DNA of 64,000 bases, taken from positions 248,001-312,000 of the forward strand of contig NZ_FOZV01000003.1 of the NCBI RefSeq assembly GCF_900116065.1, read 5' to 3'. Shown here in pieces: positions 4,724-57,552 of this stretch (its first letter is position 1; each line of letters begins with the position of its first letter). Made by a program: the position numbers and the translations under genes. Source of the stretch: Brevundimonas viscosa. GTDB taxonomy: Bacteria > Pseudomonadota > Alphaproteobacteria > Caulobacterales > Caulobacteraceae. The notes below the pieces were generated by a model. It was not told where the DNA came from. It worked only from the letters and a program-made list of their open reading frames with translations, and did not search any database.

Positions 4724-6553
4724 ATGACGCACGATCGAGGAAGGTCCGCTACGGCGGCGCTGCTGTGCCTGGCGCTGGCGGCGCCTGCGACCGTTCAACC
4801 GGCCGCCGCGGCCCCCGCATCGGCGGCGCAGGACGGCGACGCTACGCCCGCCGCCTGCCGCGCCTACGGCTTCGTCCTGCCCGAGGAGCGGTCCGCACCC
4901 CCGCGGCCGGTCCCCCCCTCGGTGACGCGACCGATCCTTCCCACGAAAAAGGAAGACCGTCTCGCCCCCGCCACGCCGCCAACCCCTCCCCCGCCGCCTC
5001 CGATGCCGCCGCCGCCGCCTCCGCCGCCCCCCGTCATGGCGGCTCCGGAGGCGATTGGGGTCACCGGCTCGCGCATCCCGTCCCTGAGCAACTCCACCGT
5101 GCCGGCCCCTGCCCGGATCGACACCGAACGCTACCCGGACGCCACGCCGAACCCGGTCCGTCGGGTCGCCGAAGAGCCGGTGTCGACCTTCTCCATCGAC
5201 GTGGACACGGCCAGCTATTCCAACGTGCGCCGCTTCATCGACGAGGGCCGGGCGCCGCCGGTGGATGCGGTGCGGGTCGAGGAGCTGATCAACTACTTCG
5301 ACTATGGCTATGCGCGGCCGCGGTCGGCCGACGAGCCGTTCGCCATCCACACCACCGTGGCCGCCGCGCCCTGGGCGCCGGGGCGGCAGGTCGTCCATGT
5401 CGGGCTGCAGGGCTACGAGCTGCCGGAGGGCGAGCGGCGGCCGTTGAACCTGACCTTCCTCGTCGACGTCTCGGGCTCGATGAACAGCCCGGACAAGCTG
5501 GCGCTGGCCCAGCGCTCGATGAACCTGATCATCGACCGGCTGCGGCCGCAGGACACGGTGGCGGTGACCTATTACGCGGAAGGGGCCGGAACGACGCTGG
5601 CGCCGACGCCGGGCGACCAGAAGCTGAAGATCCGCTGCGCCGTGGCCAGCCTCTACGCCTCGGGCGGCACGGCGGGGGCGACCGGCATGACCAACGCCTA
5701 CGACCAGGCCCAGGCCAGCTTCGCCCGCGACCGGGTCAACCGCATCCTGATGTTCACCGACGGCGACTTCAACGTCGGGGTCACCGACGACATGCGGCTG
5801 GAGGACTATGTCGCGGCGAAGCGGGAGACGGGCATCTACCTGTCGGTCTACGGCTTCGGGCGCGGCAACTACCAGGACGCCCGCATGCAGACCATCGCCC
5901 AGGCCGGCAACGGAACGGCGGCCTACGTGGACGACCTCAACGAGGCGCGGCGGCTGTTCGGGCCGATGTTCGACCGCGGAGCCTTCCCCATCGCCGACGA
6001 CGTCAAGATCCAGGTCGAGTTCAACCCGGCCCGCGTCGCCGAGTACCGGCTGATCGGCTACGAGACCCGGCTGCTGGACGAGGCCGACTTCGCCAACGAC
6101 CGCGTCGACGCCGGCGAGGTGGGGTCGGGCGCCTCGGTCACGGCGCTGTACGAGATCACCCCGGTGGGCGGACCCAGCCAGATCCCCGAGCGGCGCTACG
6201 ACCAGAACCGCATCGGGGTGGGCGGCGGCGATCCGGCGGGCGAGATCGGCTTCGTTCAGGTGCGTTACAAGCGGCCGGGCGAGGACAGCTCCCGGCTGAT
6301 CCAGCAGGTGGTGGCGAACCGCGCCTCGGGGCCGGTTTCGGCGCAGCCGCCCGAAAGCACGCGTTGGGCGTTGGCGGTGGCGGCCTTCGGCCAGAAGCTG
6401 CGCGCCGACCCGTGGATGCCGGCCGACTACGGCTGGAGCGAGATCCTCGAGCAGGCGCAGGGGGCGCGGGGCGAAGACCCGTACGGCGAACGGGCGGAGT
6501 TCGTGCAGCTGGTCCGCGCGGCGTCGGAGCTGCCGGCGCAGGCGAGGCCGTAG
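4724..6553 (+). CDS. Exported von Willebrand factor A protein (YfbK type, DUF3520)
   Basis: A 609-residue protein with a signal peptide (residues 1-30), a long proline-rich stretch at about 85-105, a YfbK N-terminal region at about 140-220, a VWA domain at about 245-415 and a DUF3520 C-terminus. The metal-ion-dependent adhesion site is intact: D248-x-S250-x-S252, with FTDGDFN later. Residues 113-118 read VTGSRI, a motif usually found at the start of TonB-dependent receptor plugs. A GGGAGG site precedes the start. The following gene starts 13 bases after the stop, so the two may be co-transcribed. Role unknown; VWA domains bind protein partners. Confidence 0.88.
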   Translation: MTHDRGRSATAALLCLALAAPATVQPAAAAPASAAQDGDATPAACRAYGFVLPEERSAPPRPVPPSVTRPILPTKKEDRLAPATPPTPPPPPPMPPPPPPPPPVMAAPEAIGVTGSRIPSLSNSTVPAPARIDTERYPDATPNPVRRVAEEPVSTFSIDVDTASYSNVRRFIDEGRAPPVDAVRVEELINYFDYGYARPRSADEPFAIHTTVAAAPWAPGRQVVHVGLQGYELPEGERRPLNLTFLVDVSGSMNSPDKLALAQRSMNLIIDRLRPQDTVAVTYYAEGAGTTLAPTPGDQKLKIRCAVASLYASGGTAGATGMTNAYDQAQASFARDRVNRILMFTDGDFNVGVTDDMRLEDYVAAKRETGIYLSVYGFGRGNYQDARMQTIAQAGNGTAAYVDDLNEARRLFGPMFDRGAFPIADDVKIQVEFNPARVAEYRLIGYETRLLDEADFANDRVDAGEVGSGASVTALYEITPVGGPSQIPERRYDQNRIGVGGGDPAGEIGFVQVRYKRPGEDSSRLIQQVVANRASGPVSAQPPESTRWALAVAAFGQKLRADPWMPADYGWSEILEQAQGARGEDPYGERAEFVQLVRAASELPAQARP

Positions 6554-6566
6554 TATGTGATCGGGG

Positions 6567-7772
6567 GTGACCGAGACCCTCTCCCCCGCAACCGCCCGCC
6601 GCATCGCCCTGGCCGCCCAGGGCTTCGGCCGGACGCCGCCCGCGGCGCCCGGCCGAAGGCACGTCCGCGACCTCGTCCGCAGGCTCGGCGTGGTCCAGAT
6701 CGACAGCGTCAATGTGCTGGCGCGGACCCATTACCTGCCCGGCTTCTCGCGGCTGGGCGACTATCCGCGCGAGGCGCTGGAGGCCGAGGCCTGGGGCGGC
6801 CGGCGGGGCCTGTTCGAGTACTGGGGCCACGAGGCGTCGCTGCTGCCGGTGGAGAGCCAGCCGCTGCTGCGCTGGCGCATGGCGCGGGCGCAGGCGGGCG
6901 AAGGCATCTGGAGCGGGGTGGCGCGGTTCGGACGCGAGCGGGCGGACTACATCGCGGAGGTGCTGAAGGAGATCGAGCGGCGGGGGCCGGTCACCGGCGG
7001 CGACTTCGCGGAAGGCCCGCGCGGGGCGCCCGGCTGGTGGTCGTGGTCGGACGGCAAGCGGGCGCTGGAATGGCTGTTCTGGGCCGGGCTGATCACCACA
7101 CGAACCCGACGCGGCTTCGAGCGGGTCTATGACCTGACGGAGCGCGCCCTGCCCCGGGCGGTGGTGGAGACGCCGACGCCGGATGAGGCGGACGCCCAGC
7201 GCGAGCTGGTGCGCATCGCGGCGCGGGCGCTGGGGGTGGCGACCGAGGCCGACCTGCGGGACTACTTCCGGCTGCCGCTGGCCGATGCGCGGGGGCGGGT
7301 GGCGGAGCTGGCCGAGGCGGGCGAGCTGGCGCCCGTGCACGTCAAGGGCTGGGGCCGGACGGCATGGCTGTGGCCCGATACACGGCGGCCGCGAAAGGTC
7401 ACGGGCGACGCCCTGCTTTCGCCGTTCGACAACCTGATCTGGACCCGGGACCGCGCCCAGCGGCTGTTCGGCGCGCGGGTGCGGCTGGAGATCTACACCC
7501 CGGCCCACAAGCGGACGCACGGCTACTACGTCCTGCCCTTCCTCGAGGACGAGGCGATCACCGCGCGCGTCGACCTGAAGGCGGACCGGCAGGCCGGCGT
7601 GCTGCGGGTCCAGGCGGCGTGGCGCGAGCCGGACACGACGGCGGAGACGCCGGATCGGCTGGCGGCGGAGCTGCGAAGGATGGCCGGATGGCTGGGGCTG
7701 GAGCGGGTCGAGATGGCCGGAAAGGGCGACCTCGCCGCGGCTCTGCCCTTCATGATTCGCGACGCGGCCTGA
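6567..7772 (+). CDS. YcaQ/AlkX-like winged-helix DNA glycosylase family protein
   Basis: A 401-residue HTH_42 (formerly DUF1006) protein. E. coli YcaQ of this family is a DNA glycosylase that unhooks interstrand crosslinks and some alkylated bases. The N-terminal winged helix carries the catalytic-type Q-x-D motif as Q44-I45-D46, followed by the conserved ARTHYLPGFSRLGDY segment; SPFDNLIW and YYVLPFL occur in the C-terminal half. GTG at 6567 is the only good start after the upstream stop. Enzyme activity is inferred from the family; the substrate range here is unknown. Confidence 0.87.
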   Translation: MTETLSPATARRIALAAQGFGRTPPAAPGRRHVRDLVRRLGVVQIDSVNVLARTHYLPGFSRLGDYPREALEAEAWGGRRGLFEYWGHEASLLPVESQPLLRWRMARAQAGEGIWSGVARFGRERADYIAEVLKEIERRGPVTGGDFAEGPRGAPGWWSWSDGKRALEWLFWAGLITTRTRRGFERVYDLTERALPRAVVETPTPDEADAQRELVRIAARALGVATEADLRDYFRLPLADARGRVAELAEAGELAPVHVKGWGRTAWLWPDTRRPRKVTGDALLSPFDNLIWTRDRAQRLFGARVRLEIYTPAHKRTHGYYVLPFLEDEAITARVDLKADRQAGVLRVQAAWREPDTTAETPDRLAAELRRMAGWLGLERVEMAGKGDLAAALPFMIRDAA

Positions 7773-7929
7773 GCTGTAGGATTATTTTCACATCGACCTC
7801 TTGAGCCACGGTCGGGTCCTGCCCATGTCCGCGGCGTGCGGCGCCTTGGCGTCGGGGGGTCTTTGACAATCTGCGACCGGCGCGACGGGCAGCCGCGCTG
7901 ACGATGATTTCCGATAACGCGGCGACCAC

Positions 7930-53366: not shown

Positions 53367-54161
53367 CTACGCCTTGTCCCTGACCCGCATCTGGCCGCCG
53401 GAGCCGGTCTGGACGTCGAAGCGGCCGGTGGCGCGGATCAGGTCGGAGAGCTTGGCGTAGCCGTAGGTGCGCTGGTCGAAGTCGGGGTAGGCGTTGCGGA
53501 GCCGGTTGGCGATGCCGCCGGCGTTGACCCAGCCGTCGCCGTCCTCGTCCATGTCGGCGATGACGGTGGCGATCAGGCGCGCCGCCTCCGACGGGGGCCG
53601 CTTGCCGGCGGCGGCCGCGGCGGGCTCGGAGCGGGCGGCGGAGGACGCGGGGCCGGCGGCGCCGCGGCGGCCGCGCTTCGGGGCGGCGGCCTCGTCCGTC
53701 GTCTCGGCGGCGGGGAGGCTGAGGTTCTCGGTGTAGATGAAGCGGGTGCAGGCCTGGCGGAAGCTCTCGGGCGTCTTGCGCTCGCCGAAGCCGTAGACGT
53801 CGACCCCCTCCTCGCGGATGCGCGACGCCAGCCGGGTGAAGTCGGCGTCGGACGAGACGAGGCAGAAGCCGTCGAAGCGGCCCGAATGCAGCAGGTCCAT
53901 GGCGTCGATGACGAGGGCGATGTCGCCCGAGTTCTTGCCCTTCGTGTTGGCGAAATTCTGCTGCGGCTGGATGGCGAAGCGGGCCAGCACCCGCGTCCAG
54001 CCCTGGATCTGGGCCGAGGCGAAGTCGCCGTAGATGCGCCGCGCCGAGGCCTCGCCGAGGGTGGCGATCTCGGTGAACAGGGCCTCGGCGATCTTCGGCG
54101 AGGCGTTCTCGGCGTCGATCAGCACGGCGAGTCGGGGGGCCTTGGCGGGGTCGGCGGGCAT
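53367..54161 (-). CDS. NYN-domain (LabA/DUF88-like) protein with C-terminal OST-HTH/LOTUS-like domain
   Basis: A 264-residue protein. Residues 10-140 form an NYN ribonuclease-like fold with its acidic residues (LAVLIDAENAS with D16; GDIALVIDAMD; CLVSSDADFTRLA). An alanine/arginine-rich linker (about 150-185) leads to a C-terminal OST-HTH/LOTUS-like winged helix (about 190-260, YAKLSDLIRATGRFDV). NYN proteins cleave or process RNA; the LOTUS part binds RNA. Targets unknown. The start at 54161 lies inside the 3' end of the upstream small gene. Confidence 0.87.
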   Translation of the reverse strand: MPADPAKAPRLAVLIDAENASPKIAEALFTEIATLGEASARRIYGDFASAQIQGWTRVLARFAIQPQQNFANTKGKNSGDIALVIDAMDLLHSGRFDGFCLVSSDADFTRLASRIREEGVDVYGFGERKTPESFRQACTRFIYTENLSLPAAETTDEAAAPKRGRRGAAGPASSAARSEPAAAAAGKRPPSEAARLIATVIADMDEDGDGWVNAGGIANRLRNAYPDFDQRTYGYAKLSDLIRATGRFDVQTGSGGQMRVRDKA

Positions 54162-54454
54162 GGGCGGGCTTTCGTTGCGCGGGCGGCCATGATGGCGGGG
54201 TTCGGCGGCGGTGTCTCGACGCATCGGTCGGCGGCGATCCCGAACTCGGCGCGGGCGGCCTCGAACAGCAGGCCGGGCAGGACGAAGGCGGCCGGATTGG
54301 CCCGGCCGTTCAGGCGCAGGGTCCACAGATAGAGATGCTCGTGCGGGAAGTGCGGCTCGAGCGTCCGGGCGGCGATGGCCGCCAGCCGCAGGCGCTGGAC
54401 GCCCCACAGCACGCGGTCGCGGCGACGCGGACGGGCGCAACGTCGGGGCTTCAT
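54119..54454 (-). CDS. Small basic hypothetical protein upstream of the NYN gene
   Basis: A 111-residue basic protein (MKPRRCARPRRRDRVLW) with a middle helix and a proline-rich end. No family recognised. A near-perfect AAGGAGGT lies six bases before the ATG at 54454, which is the best ribosome site in the window, and a hairpin GCGGATGC...GCATCCGC (54476-54504) stands just above it. It overlaps the NYN gene by 43 bases, so the two are co-translated. Confidence 0.68.
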   Translation of the reverse strand: MKPRRCARPRRRDRVLWGVQRLRLAAIAARTLEPHFPHEHLYLWTLRLNGRANPAAFVLPGLLFEAARAEFGIAADRCVETPPPNPAIMAARATKARPCPPTPPRPPDSPC

Positions 54455-55018
54455 GGGCGGACCTCCTTCGGACACGCGGATGCGGCCTCCGGCGGAGCAT
54501 CCGCCGGCAGGGTGGGAAGGGCGCGGGGCGCCGGGCCTCGCCCGGTCTGTGAGTGTGTGTACCGTTTCGACGAAGCTGACGCCCCGCGTAGCCGTTGTGC
54601 GCGCGCTCTCCGGCTGGCGGCCCTGACATTCGAGCCTTGCCGGATCTCCGCCGGGACCGTTGCCGGGCCCGACGCGGGGCGGACATGACGGCCCTCTTCA
54701 GGGGACGTCAGCAGCCCGCAGTCCAGCGGCGCGCGGCGAGCAAGCGGGCAGGATCCACTCCCTGCCCGACGAGGACCCCGGGACTCTCCGTCGCCCCGGC
54801 TTCATCGCTCGACCACAGCCCGCCGTCGTCGAGGTCGTGGATCCGACGCCCTCCCCATCGACGGGATGGGAGAAGTGTGGGGGCGGTTGTTCCCATGGCG
54901 TGAAAATGACGCTGCCTGCCGGTGTTTGTTCAATGAAAACAGCGGGCGATGCGCGCGAGATAGGGGACTTAAACATTAACTCCCGGCGCCCGGGCGGGGT
55001 CTGGCGCCGCTGGTTCAT

Positions 55019-55055
55019 CACGAAGGACACGAAGGAGGCACGAAGGACACGAAGG
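55019..55055. repeat. Tandem repeat CACGAAGGACACGAAGG x2
   Basis: A 17-base sequence occurs at 55019-55035 and 55039-55055, a 20-base period. Each copy itself contains CACGAAGG twice. This is a kind of short intergenic repeat seen in many proteobacterial genomes. Confidence 0.8.
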
Positions 55056-55139
55056 GGCCGGCGTGTTCTGCGGCGGCATCGCACCCGACTGCAGGCCTTC
55101 GGCCCGCGGGCTGCGGAAACAGGCGCGCTCCCGGCCTCG

Positions 55140-55170
55140 CCCCTCCACCGCTTCGCGGTCCCCCTCCCCC
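55140..55170. repeat. Copy of the ruvC palindromic repeat, opposite strand
   Basis: 31 bases identical to the reverse complement of 48358-48388, including the inner hairpin ACCGCTTCGCGGT. It continues into a degenerate CCTCCCC..GGGGAGG hairpin up to about 55189. Confidence 0.85.
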
Positions 55171-55211
55171 CGCCTGCGGCGCGGGGAGGAAACGTCGTCG
55201 CCGCCCCCGCG

Positions 55212-55240
55212 TCTCCTCCCCATCGCAGATGGGGAGGAGA
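55212..55240. repeat. Long perfect hairpin, related bipartite repeat unit
   Basis: TCTCCTCCCCATC (55212-55224) and GATGGGGAGGAGA (55228-55240) form 13 perfect base pairs around GCA. The following ACCATGC...GCATG (to about 55264) resembles the inner hairpin of the ruvC units. No T run follows, so not a terminator. Confidence 0.8.
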
Positions 55241-55350
55241 CCATGCCGAGCGCAGCGCAGCATGCTCGAAGCTTCCCAGCACAGACGCTTCGCTAGGCAC
55301 CACAGTCGATTATTGGCGCTTGATCGCTTGGCACCACCTCCGGACCCATG

Positions 55351-55409: not shown

Positions 55410-56501
55410 ATGCCTCTACGTGACACACTTCAATCCATCGTATCCCTGCAATCCGCCCATACGTCAGTTATGTCTCCCGCCATGGCGGAACGAGGAGAGC
55501 TAGTCCGACATCGGCTGAGAGAAGAGATTCTCGACTTTCGTTTCGAGATTTCGGCTGCACTTGGGAGGTATGGCGACGATCTAGCCGTTGAAGGAAGCGA
55601 CGGCATTGGCCGAAAGGCCTTGGTGCCATGGACTCGGTACTTCTCCAGGCGGATGTCGCCATCTGCAACGCAGGGCTGGTACGTAGTATACCTCTTTCAC
55701 CCTGACGCCACCGGGGTGTCGCTCTGTTTGAGCCACGCCTCCACGGTGCCCCAAGAGGGGAACTTCAAAGGCATCTCCCATCAGGAAACCGCCGAGCTCG
55801 TCCAATGGGGCCGGGCGGTTCTAGCAGGTGAGTTCGTGGGAGATGCTACAGTGAAGACTGGGGTCAGCCTCGGGGGAAAACGGCTCGCGGCTGCCTACGA
55901 GAAGACCACGTTGTTCTCAAAATTTTATCCCTCTGGAAACATCCCTGACGACCGTGTCTTGGGAGATGACCTGGTCGATTTCGCTCGGGCACTTGCGAAA
56001 CTCTATCGCGCCGAGGAAACGGGCTTGGTTCCGGGAACCAATAGCTCAGAGATCGTCCAAATCCTTCAATTCGCTGAAGAGATTGCTTCTCCTGCAAAAT
56101 TTCCGGCCGCTGGGCAAGGCTGGGGATTGGACCATGCCGCTCGGACGGCGGTCGAACTTCGAGCGATGGAAGTAGCGGAGGCTTGGCTCACGGAGAATGG
56201 CTTTGTCGCCAAAGACGTCTCGGCAACTGAGAGCTGCGACTTTCTCGGAGAACGTGACGGGCTCAGCTGGGTCGTTGAGGTCAAGGGCACCACCGGGGGC
56301 CCGAAGAGCGTGCTTTTGACTCGAAATGAGGTGCAGCTTCACCGCGAGTCCTACCCGCGTAATGCCCTACTCATCGTGCATGGAATTAGACTCAGCAAAG
56401 AGGGTCCCACGGCTTCTGGGGGCGCGCTCATGGCAATTTGTCCTTGGAAGCTGGACGAGGATCGACTTGAGCCGACCTCTTATGAATACCGAGTCTCTTA
56501 A
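55410..56501 (+). CDS. McrB-N-like (DUF3578) plus DUF3883 nuclease-like protein, candidate restriction/defence factor
   Basis: A 363-residue protein with two recognisable parts. Residues about 10-190 match the MrcB N-terminal domain (DUF3578), with PWTRYFSRRMSPSATQGWYV and the YLF..DGVSLCLSH pattern; in McrB this region recognises modified DNA. Residues about 240-350 are a DUF3883 (NOV C-terminal) domain with the PD-(D/E)xK-like set D277, E290, K292 in CDFL..VEVKGT and LLTRNEVQLH after it. There is no AAA or GTPase motor and no McrC nearby. GC is clearly lower than its neighbours. AGGAGG is ten bases before the ATG. Defence role is inferred from domains. Confidence 0.82.
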   Translation: MPLRDTLQSIVSLQSAHTSVMSPAMAERGELVRHRLREEILDFRFEISAALGRYGDDLAVEGSDGIGRKALVPWTRYFSRRMSPSATQGWYVVYLFHPDATGVSLCLSHASTVPQEGNFKGISHQETAELVQWGRAVLAGEFVGDATVKTGVSLGGKRLAAAYEKTTLFSKFYPSGNIPDDRVLGDDLVDFARALAKLYRAEETGLVPGTNSSEIVQILQFAEEIASPAKFPAAGQGWGLDHAARTAVELRAMEVAEAWLTENGFVAKDVSATESCDFLGERDGLSWVVEVKGTTGGPKSVLLTRNEVQLHRESYPRNALLIVHGIRLSKEGPTASGGALMAICPWKLDEDRLEPTSYEYRVS

Positions 56502-56746
56502 GACCGCTTGAACCGGATCAGGTCGTACTTCTCCGCGAACCACACTACGAAGTCCGCCGGCGTCTCCCCGTAGCCCCAGTAGCGAAGCACGTCCTCTCGG
56601 TCCCAGCCGGCGTTAGCGGAGTCGATGCACCAATCGCGACGCAGGATGCGGTCGACTTCGGCAAGCCAGCGGCGACAGGCACGAGTGAGGGAGGCAGCGC
56701 GGGGCATGGCGGAAGTCTTGGCGCGAGCGCTCTCCCACGCAACCAT
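56498..56746 (-). CDS. Small hypothetical protein convergent to the DUF3883 gene
   Basis: An 82-residue soluble protein (a shorter 69-residue form starting at 56707, MPRAASL, is possible). It has an aromatic-rich C-terminal half: WCIDSANAGWDREDVLRYWGYGETPADFVVWFAEKYDLIRF. No family recognised with confidence. Its stop overlaps the preceding gene's stop by four bases, so the pair may be functionally tied or just a tight junction. No strong ribosome site. Confidence 0.55.
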   Translation of the reverse strand: MVAWESARAKTSAMPRAASLTRACRRWLAEVDRILRRDWCIDSANAGWDREDVLRYWGYGETPADFVVWFAEKYDLIRFKRS

Positions 56747-56775: not shown

Positions 56776-57552
56776 CTACTTCACCTTCACCCCCACCCCG
56801 TCCGCGCCGCCGGGCTTGCTCACCGCCACGTCGAACACCTCCTGGCCGAACTGGAGGCCGCGGACGGCGCGTTCGATGAGGGCGACGACCTCGTCGGCGG
56901 GCTGGTCGGTGCGGACGTCGAGGTGCCAGCCCATCATCTGCGCCTCCATCCAGCGGGCGCGGGCCAGCCAGGCGGCCTTGACGTCGAGGCCCTTGAAGGC
57001 CTCGTTGAGGCGGCCGATGAGGGCGATCGGGTGCTGGGGTTCGGGGACGTCGGCGAGCTCGACCGTGCCGGTGGGGCGGCGCGCGTGGGTCGGCGGGACC
57101 GGGGTCTGCTCCAGCACCTCGCGGATCTGGTCGGGGTTGAGCAGCAGGCCCTTGCCGTCGGCGGGGTTGAGCAGGACCACCGCGTCCTTCAGGATCTGCA
57201 GCAGGTTGCGGCCCTTCATGGCGATGATGCGGGCGCCCTCGCCGAACATCTGCGTGGCGCGGCGCGGGTCGGTGAACAGGGTGACGGTGTTGCGGCCGTC
57301 GTTGAGCACGACGCCGCGCAGGACCAGCTGCTCCCCCGGGCGCAGCACCTTGGGGCCGTCGTCGCCGGGGGTTCCGCCGGGGCTGTCGGGCTCGGGCACG
57401 GCGTAGAGGTCGGCCTCGAGCATCAGCCGCTCGAACACGCCCATCTTCGTGTGATCGGCGAGGCCCTCGTAGAGCGCCACCTCCAGCGGGTTCATCGGAT
57501 TGTCGGTGAAGCGCAGCGGCTGGGGAGCGGCGGCGGTCGAGGCGTCGGTCAT
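56776..57552 (-). CDS. SseB-family protein
   Basis: A 258-residue cytosolic protein with an SseB N-terminal domain (about 20-150, NPLEVALYEGLADHTKMGVFERLML and VTLFTDPRRATQMFGEGARI) and a C-terminal SseB domain (about 165-255, PIALIGRLNEAFKGLDVKAAWLAR). The domain family is named after E. coli SseB (enhanced serine sensitivity), whose role is unclear. It marks the return to normal high-GC backbone after the lower-GC segment. Confidence 0.85.
   Translation of the reverse strand: MTDASTAAAPQPLRFTDNPMNPLEVALYEGLADHTKMGVFERLMLEADLYAVPEPDSPGGTPGDDGPKVLRPGEQLVLRGVVLNDGRNTVTLFTDPRRATQMFGEGARIIAMKGRNLLQILKDAVVLLNPADGKGLLLNPDQIREVLEQTPVPPTHARRPTGTVELADVPEPQHPIALIGRLNEAFKGLDVKAAWLARARWMEAQMMGWHLDVRTDQPADEVVALIERAVRGLQFGQEVFDVAVSKPGGADGVGVKVK

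Follow-up and report, generated by a model that had tools for sequence, protein, structure and literature searches.

A predicted single-chain, modification-dependent nuclease with a McrB-type reader domain in Brevundimonas viscosa, and the small protein family encoded beside it

Introduction

Can a McrB-type reader of modified cytosine work in a single chain with its own nuclease, and without a motor? The question is raised by an open reading frame of Brevundimonas viscosa, here called P0001, that lies within the window, the whole stretch of 64,000 nucleotides of DNA that was analyzed. A first-pass annotation described P0001 as a stand-alone, candidate compact type IV-like enzyme in a lower-GC segment with flanking repeats, having a DUF3578-like N-terminal half and a DUF3883 C-terminal half. 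We have examined its domains, homologues and chromosomal setting, together with a small open reading frame, P0002, that abuts it. The features of the locus are summarized in Table 1.

Table 1. Features of the P0001 locus, in window coordinates
Feature	Position	Strand	Size or basis
P0001, single-chain MrcB_N + NOV_C (DUF3883) protein, predicted modification-dependent nuclease	55410..56501	+	363 aa
MrcB_N reader domain, residues 45-198	55542..56003	+	Pfam, PDB profile and fold search
NOV_C / PD-(D/E)XK-like nuclease domain, residues 249-325; E249, D277, E290, K292	56154..56384	+	Pfam, alignment, model
P0002, putative partner ORF, convergent with P0001, stop codons overlapping	56498..56746	-	82 aa
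Conserved flanking gene at hotspot edge, presumably SseB-like; 98% identical in sister genome G010	56776..57552	-	
Conserved flanking gene at other hotspot edge, which we take to be of NYN-domain type	53367..54185	-	
Dispersed intergenic repeat DNA upstream of P0001, many copies in sister genome	~54514..55265	.	

Results

The P0001 gene and its reader domain

P0001 is a real open reading frame, as first annotated. It has an ATG start with a good ribosome-binding sequence upstream, the Shine-Dalgarno-like AGGAGGGG. The gene has a GC content of 0.571 and GC3 of 0.602, while the conserved neighbour genes have GC contents of 0.68-0.77. The two 1-kb bins at P0001 have GC contents of 0.62-0.63, and that of the whole window is ~0.72. 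The lower-GC segment is therefore confirmed, and by its composition (57% GC against ~72%) P0001 is a foreign, horizontally acquired gene. Pfam identifies MrcB_N and NOV_C as the only domains in the 363 amino acids, and an AAA+ GTPase domain was not found there. PADLOC, NCBIfam and PHROGs returned a meaningful family for neither P0001 nor P0002. The AlphaFold model of P0001 has a mean pLDDT of 83.

The proposed DUF3578-like character of the N-terminal half was borne out by profile search. PF12102 (MrcB_N) matches P0001 with E = 5.6e-24 and 85 bits (cut-off 25), and the domain is also matched in homologues L002 and L009. When the family profile was compared with the PDB it matched the DNA-binding domain of E. 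coli McrB (3ssc, E = 8.9e-6), and in this alignment W74, Y91 and L95 of P0001 correspond to McrB W49, Y64 and L68. In McrB, Y64 and L68 touch the 5-methyl group (PMC3874153), and the equivalents of these methyl-contact residues, Y91 and L95, are kept in P0001. The position of McrB Y41, described as non-conserved (PMC3874153), is I66. Fold searching with the P0001 model gave DNA-bound McrB DNA-binding domains (3ssc, 6gcd, 8ik8) as most of the top PDB matches, with probabilities mostly 0.9-1.0 and target-normalised TM values of 0.4-0.5. The whole chain was searched with both domains together and E-values were just above 0.001, so the fold assignment rests on the probabilities near 1 and on the agreement with sequence.

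The predicted nuclease domain

The C-terminal half matches PF13020 (NOV_C, formerly DUF3883), in agreement with the first-pass annotation. The score is only slightly above the cut-off (E = 2.5e-6, 27.9 bits against 22.1). The profile also matches L002, and in L009 falls just below the cut-off (20.9 against 22.1). The acidic and lysine residues singled out earlier, D277, E290 and K292, do not vary among the five full-length sequences, and the D / E-x-K motif recurs in DUF3883 relatives and in two further single chains (L193 and L194, below).

The suggestion that these residues form a PD-(D/E)XK-like set gains support from the structural model. The C-terminal region is predicted to have an alpha-beta-beta-beta-alpha-beta arrangement (helices 242-262 and 305-314; strands 278-282, 285-293, 300-303 and 318-328), with D277 and E290-x-K292 carried on the predicted core as in PD-(D/E)XK enzymes. 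After McrB, the fold matches are Hjc Holliday-junction resolvases, aligned with the C-terminal half with probability up to 0.98 and TM 0.4-0.53. The modelled domain thus has both the fold and the active-site residues expected of a PD-(D/E)XK nuclease, and P0001, which joins a reader from a known modified-base family to a predicted nuclease, has the domain make-up of a type IV enzyme.

Homologues and related single chains

Full-length homologues of P0001 were found in two other genomes of the genus (58% identity) and in two Mesorhizobium records (50-51%). The gene is present in 3 of 101 genomes of the genus, including that of the window (G000, G016 and G029), and no further full-length homologue was found in 385 genomes of the class or 399 of the phylum. 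Pairs of homologues have dN/dS values of 0.09 and 0.31, and the gene is therefore maintained under purifying selection. A profile of the five sequences found no relative in viral contigs, and phage records gave weak partial matches only. Matches in plasmids either spanned a single domain or reached 64% of the query, with 26% identity. We rejected these as relatives; the two that were checked by annotation were a full McrB beside McrC and a larger DUF3578 protein.

Related single chains point to exchange of modules between readers and nucleases. In L193 (928-1914) and L194 (994-1905), DUF3427 is fused to a NOV_C tail in proteins of 303-328 amino acids, making these candidates for another motor-free type IV enzyme, and in L196 (1243-2172, minus strand) MrcB_N lies ahead of HNH in a protein of 309 amino acids. 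DUF3427 is the proposed substrate-recognising domain of the 5mC-dependent SauUSI. Nuclease tails of one kind are thus joined to two different families of modified-cytosine reader, known or proposed, and this is the strongest indirect sign that P0001 is modification-dependent.

Comparison with known systems

P0001 is related to McrBC of E. coli K-12 through the family of its N-terminal domain (PF12102), the equivalents of W49, Y64 and L68, and the best fold match of its N-terminal half. It differs in having neither the AAA+ GTPase nor McrC, and in having NOV_C as a nuclease fused to the reader. Single-chain reader-nucleases include the EVE-HNH enzyme VcaM4I, the SRA-HNH enzyme TagI, PvuRts1I and MspJI (PMC7897488, PMC6212794, PMC12707154). 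P0001 is likewise small and motor-free, with a modified-base reader and a nuclease, but McrB-N takes the place of EVE or SRA as its reader, and its nuclease belongs to NOV_C and not to HNH or to the types found in PvuRts1I and MspJI. DUF3883 was described as a novel REase domain in 2013 (PMC3710099). In the DUF3883/NOV_C nucleases described there, the same domain family is attached to a SNF2 helicase and belongs to systems of several genes, whereas in P0001 it is joined to McrB-N and there is no motor. SauUSI (PLD-helicase-DUF3427) is linked to P0001 by its proposed reader, which is found fused to the same kind of NOV_C tail in L193 and L194, but P0001 has MrcB_N and neither helicase nor PLD domain. 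Our literature search found no paper naming DUF3578 and DUF3883 together. The combination with McrB-N therefore appears to be new, although single-chain reader-nucleases are already known.

A restriction hotspot downstream of lepA

The lepA gene lies 12 kb from P0001, just past the end of the window. The corresponding slot of the closest relative, G010, where the flanks are 91-93% identical, is occupied by EcoRII together with a C5 methylase and a Vsr-like protein (L054, 1864-4791). This EcoRII system shares the chromosomal position of P0001, but its enzyme is unrelated and is of type II with its own methylase. Comparison with close relatives thus shows presence or absence at a variable slot, and not a gene at the same place in all relatives with backbone GC.

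We surveyed the stretch 3' of lepA across the genus, where 81 genomes were usable (loci L110-L189). Classes were called by tblastn with representatives, an approach by which other defence genes there would be missed. Type IV-like nucleases are present in 30 of the 81 intervals (21 DUF3883, 3 MrcB_N-NOV_C, 3 HNH, 2 EVE-like HNH and 1 GmrSD), C5 methylase, EcoRII or Vsr genes in 14, and one or other kind in 42. The interval between lepA and the presumed NYN-domain gene is therefore a genus-wide restriction hotspot of which P0001 is one alternative occupant, and within this single genus it supplies a natural set of restriction enzymes that are alternatives to one another. The DUF3883 genes of the hotspot seem to be broken into two pieces in L161 (G518) and L152 (G491), which suggests that some lineages have lost the nuclease.

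We could not sustain the earlier statement that repeats flank the gene. The repeat DNA upstream of the gene is intergenic and dispersed, a 17-nt tandem repeat is present only upstream, and no pair of terminal repeats bracketing P0001 was found. The repeats were therefore rejected as the boundary of a mobile element.

Alternative functions of P0001

The reading that we favour, and consider likely, is that P0001 is a single-chain, motor-free, modification-dependent (type IV-like) restriction nuclease, acquired horizontally into the lepA hotspot, with P0002 as a shared partner. The McrB-type domain would flip out and read a modified cytosine, for which 5mC, 5hmC and 4mC are natural candidates, and the fused PD-(D/E)XK domain would cut near the modified base, probably by forming a dimer or by engaging two sites. 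Cutting would require neither an AAA+ GTPase motor nor McrC. The gene would have been gained into the hotspot by horizontal transfer, and P0002, shared with other type IV-like nucleases, would restrain or assist the enzyme. Defence of the cell would be the expected outcome. P0001 would then be a McrB-type base reader that works without a GTP motor, in a compact protein that could serve to detect cytosine modifications. The compact type IV-like single chain that was first proposed agrees with the domains, the catalytic set, the modelled folds, the methyl-contact residues and the patchy distribution; its description as stand-alone and repeat-flanked had to be given up.

DUF3883 is also listed, as presumed, among archaeal type IIR restriction enzyme families (PMC10609329), so P0001 could read an unmodified site. 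It might then be an orphan type II enzyme reading unmodified (or hemimodified) sequence, with its cognate methylase elsewhere in the genome. We regard this as unlikely. The B. viscosa genome does have one C5 methylase, away from the gene, and if P0001 is active it must therefore leave that mark uncut. Yet such methylases are nearly universal, at least one being found in 97 of 101 genomes of the genus, against three that carry P0001. The counts in these three carriers are 1, 1 and 0, the genome with none found being G029, in a genome-wide search confined to C5 methylases. Next to the gene itself there is no methylase in four of five loci (G000, G016, G029 and L009). The fifth, from Mesorhizobium (L010), has an N6/N4 methylase at 6145-7821, 180 bp upstream of the P0001 homologue, which would suit a type II enzyme, but this methylase is fused to an Mrr catalytic domain of its own and is probably a separate system. 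Retention of the methyl-contact residues in P0001 also argues against an unmodified target. The L010 homologue lies near a tRNA-Thr-like sequence. Across the genus, a possible tendency of type IV-like nucleases to exclude C5 methylases (mean 1.9 versus 2.7 hits, p = 0.014, uncorrected for relatedness) was too weak to be used.

It is still less probable, and in our judgment very improbable, that P0001 is a degraded or non-nuclease binder of modified DNA, or the motor-less remnant of a larger system. The low NOV_C score might be taken that way, as might the missing motor and McrC. The latter agree with the first-pass annotation, since Pfam shows MrcB_N and NOV_C alone, no McrC was seen in the flanks of P0001 loci, and PF10117 was unmatched in G000, G016 and G029; its controls matched in 1 of 14 genomes, so that this is moderate evidence. 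A remnant would not be expected, however, to persist as five full-length homologues across two distant genera, with invariant catalytic residues and evident purifying selection, and nuclease tails like this one are present in further single chains of comparable size.

P0002, a small protein family next to type IV-like nucleases

P0001 does not stand alone. It abuts the conserved 82-amino acid P0002 ORF, the two genes meeting head-to-head with both stops sharing TTAA. P0002 belongs to an undescribed family of ~50-120 amino acids (window, L059-L075, L079 and L206-L212), and this is a less expected result than the compact nuclease. It has no Pfam family and matches no PDB entry by sequence or by fold, and its model is all-alpha with a pLDDT of 75. 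All 136 pairs within the family have pN < pS, indicating purifying selection. Matches in plasmids were weak (E ~0.3) and were not used, and L076 and L077 (E ~3e-4, lacking a nuclease neighbour) were treated as chance.

There are 18 clear members in the 101 genomes of the genus, and the gene on the 3' side is a type IV-like nuclease in every case, with class representatives confirmed by Pfam and the DUF3883 type by PF13020 matches. Profile searches of the class and order revealed eight more, of which seven come from outside the genus. Each of the eight adjoins a nuclease: HNH_2 in G454, G952, G947, G1000 and G919, NOV_C in G095 and, judged by sequence, in G941, and EVE-like HNH in G926. G454 was seen first, so the other seven form an out-of-sample test of the association, in which 7/7 adjoin type IV-like nucleases. 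In total, 26 of 26 clear members neighbour NOV_C, HNH_2, EVE-like HNH or GmrSD; they come from several bacterial families and show three gene orders. The arrangement is mostly convergent in the genus, while the nuclease precedes P0002 on the same strand in L207-L211 and follows it in L063, L071, L079, L206 and L212. A nuclease with P0002 also adjoins lepA in a different family of the order (L208-L210).

P0002 is most likely a partner of type IV-like nucleases, an accessory that would restrain or assist them. The main competing explanation, which we find rather doubtful, is that it is a mere resident of the lepA hotspot, functionally unlinked to nucleases that simply inserted beside it. Closely similar copies of P0002 do adjoin differing nuclease classes (G060 versus G499, and G027 versus G492), as would be expected either of a general accessory or of a neighbour retained while nucleases were exchanged, and the GC3 of P0002 is 0.80 compared with 0.60 for P0001. 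Moreover 17 of the 30 nuclease-bearing lepA intervals have no P0002, nor was it found with the Mesorhizobium homologues of P0001, which speaks against a strict requirement. Yet in the lepA intervals P0002 is present in 13 with a nuclease and in 0/51 without (Fisher 3e-7, uncorrected for shared ancestry). Outside the genus, members also adjoin nucleases where lepA is not in view, and in same-strand tandem (L079, L207, L211 and L212).

A broader role for the partner can be put forward tentatively, at somewhat less than even chances. P0002 may found a new family of small partners dedicated to type IV-like nucleases that lack a motor and are unrelated in fold (NOV_C, HNH_2, EVE-like HNH and GmrSD). 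It might be, for instance, an inhibitor, licence or adaptor common to them, and enzymes regarded as single-component would then be two-component in these bacteria. The family may bear on how cells tolerate nucleases when they have no protective methylase, and its adjacency to nucleases is a new, testable claim. One member, that of G947, contains two stop codons.
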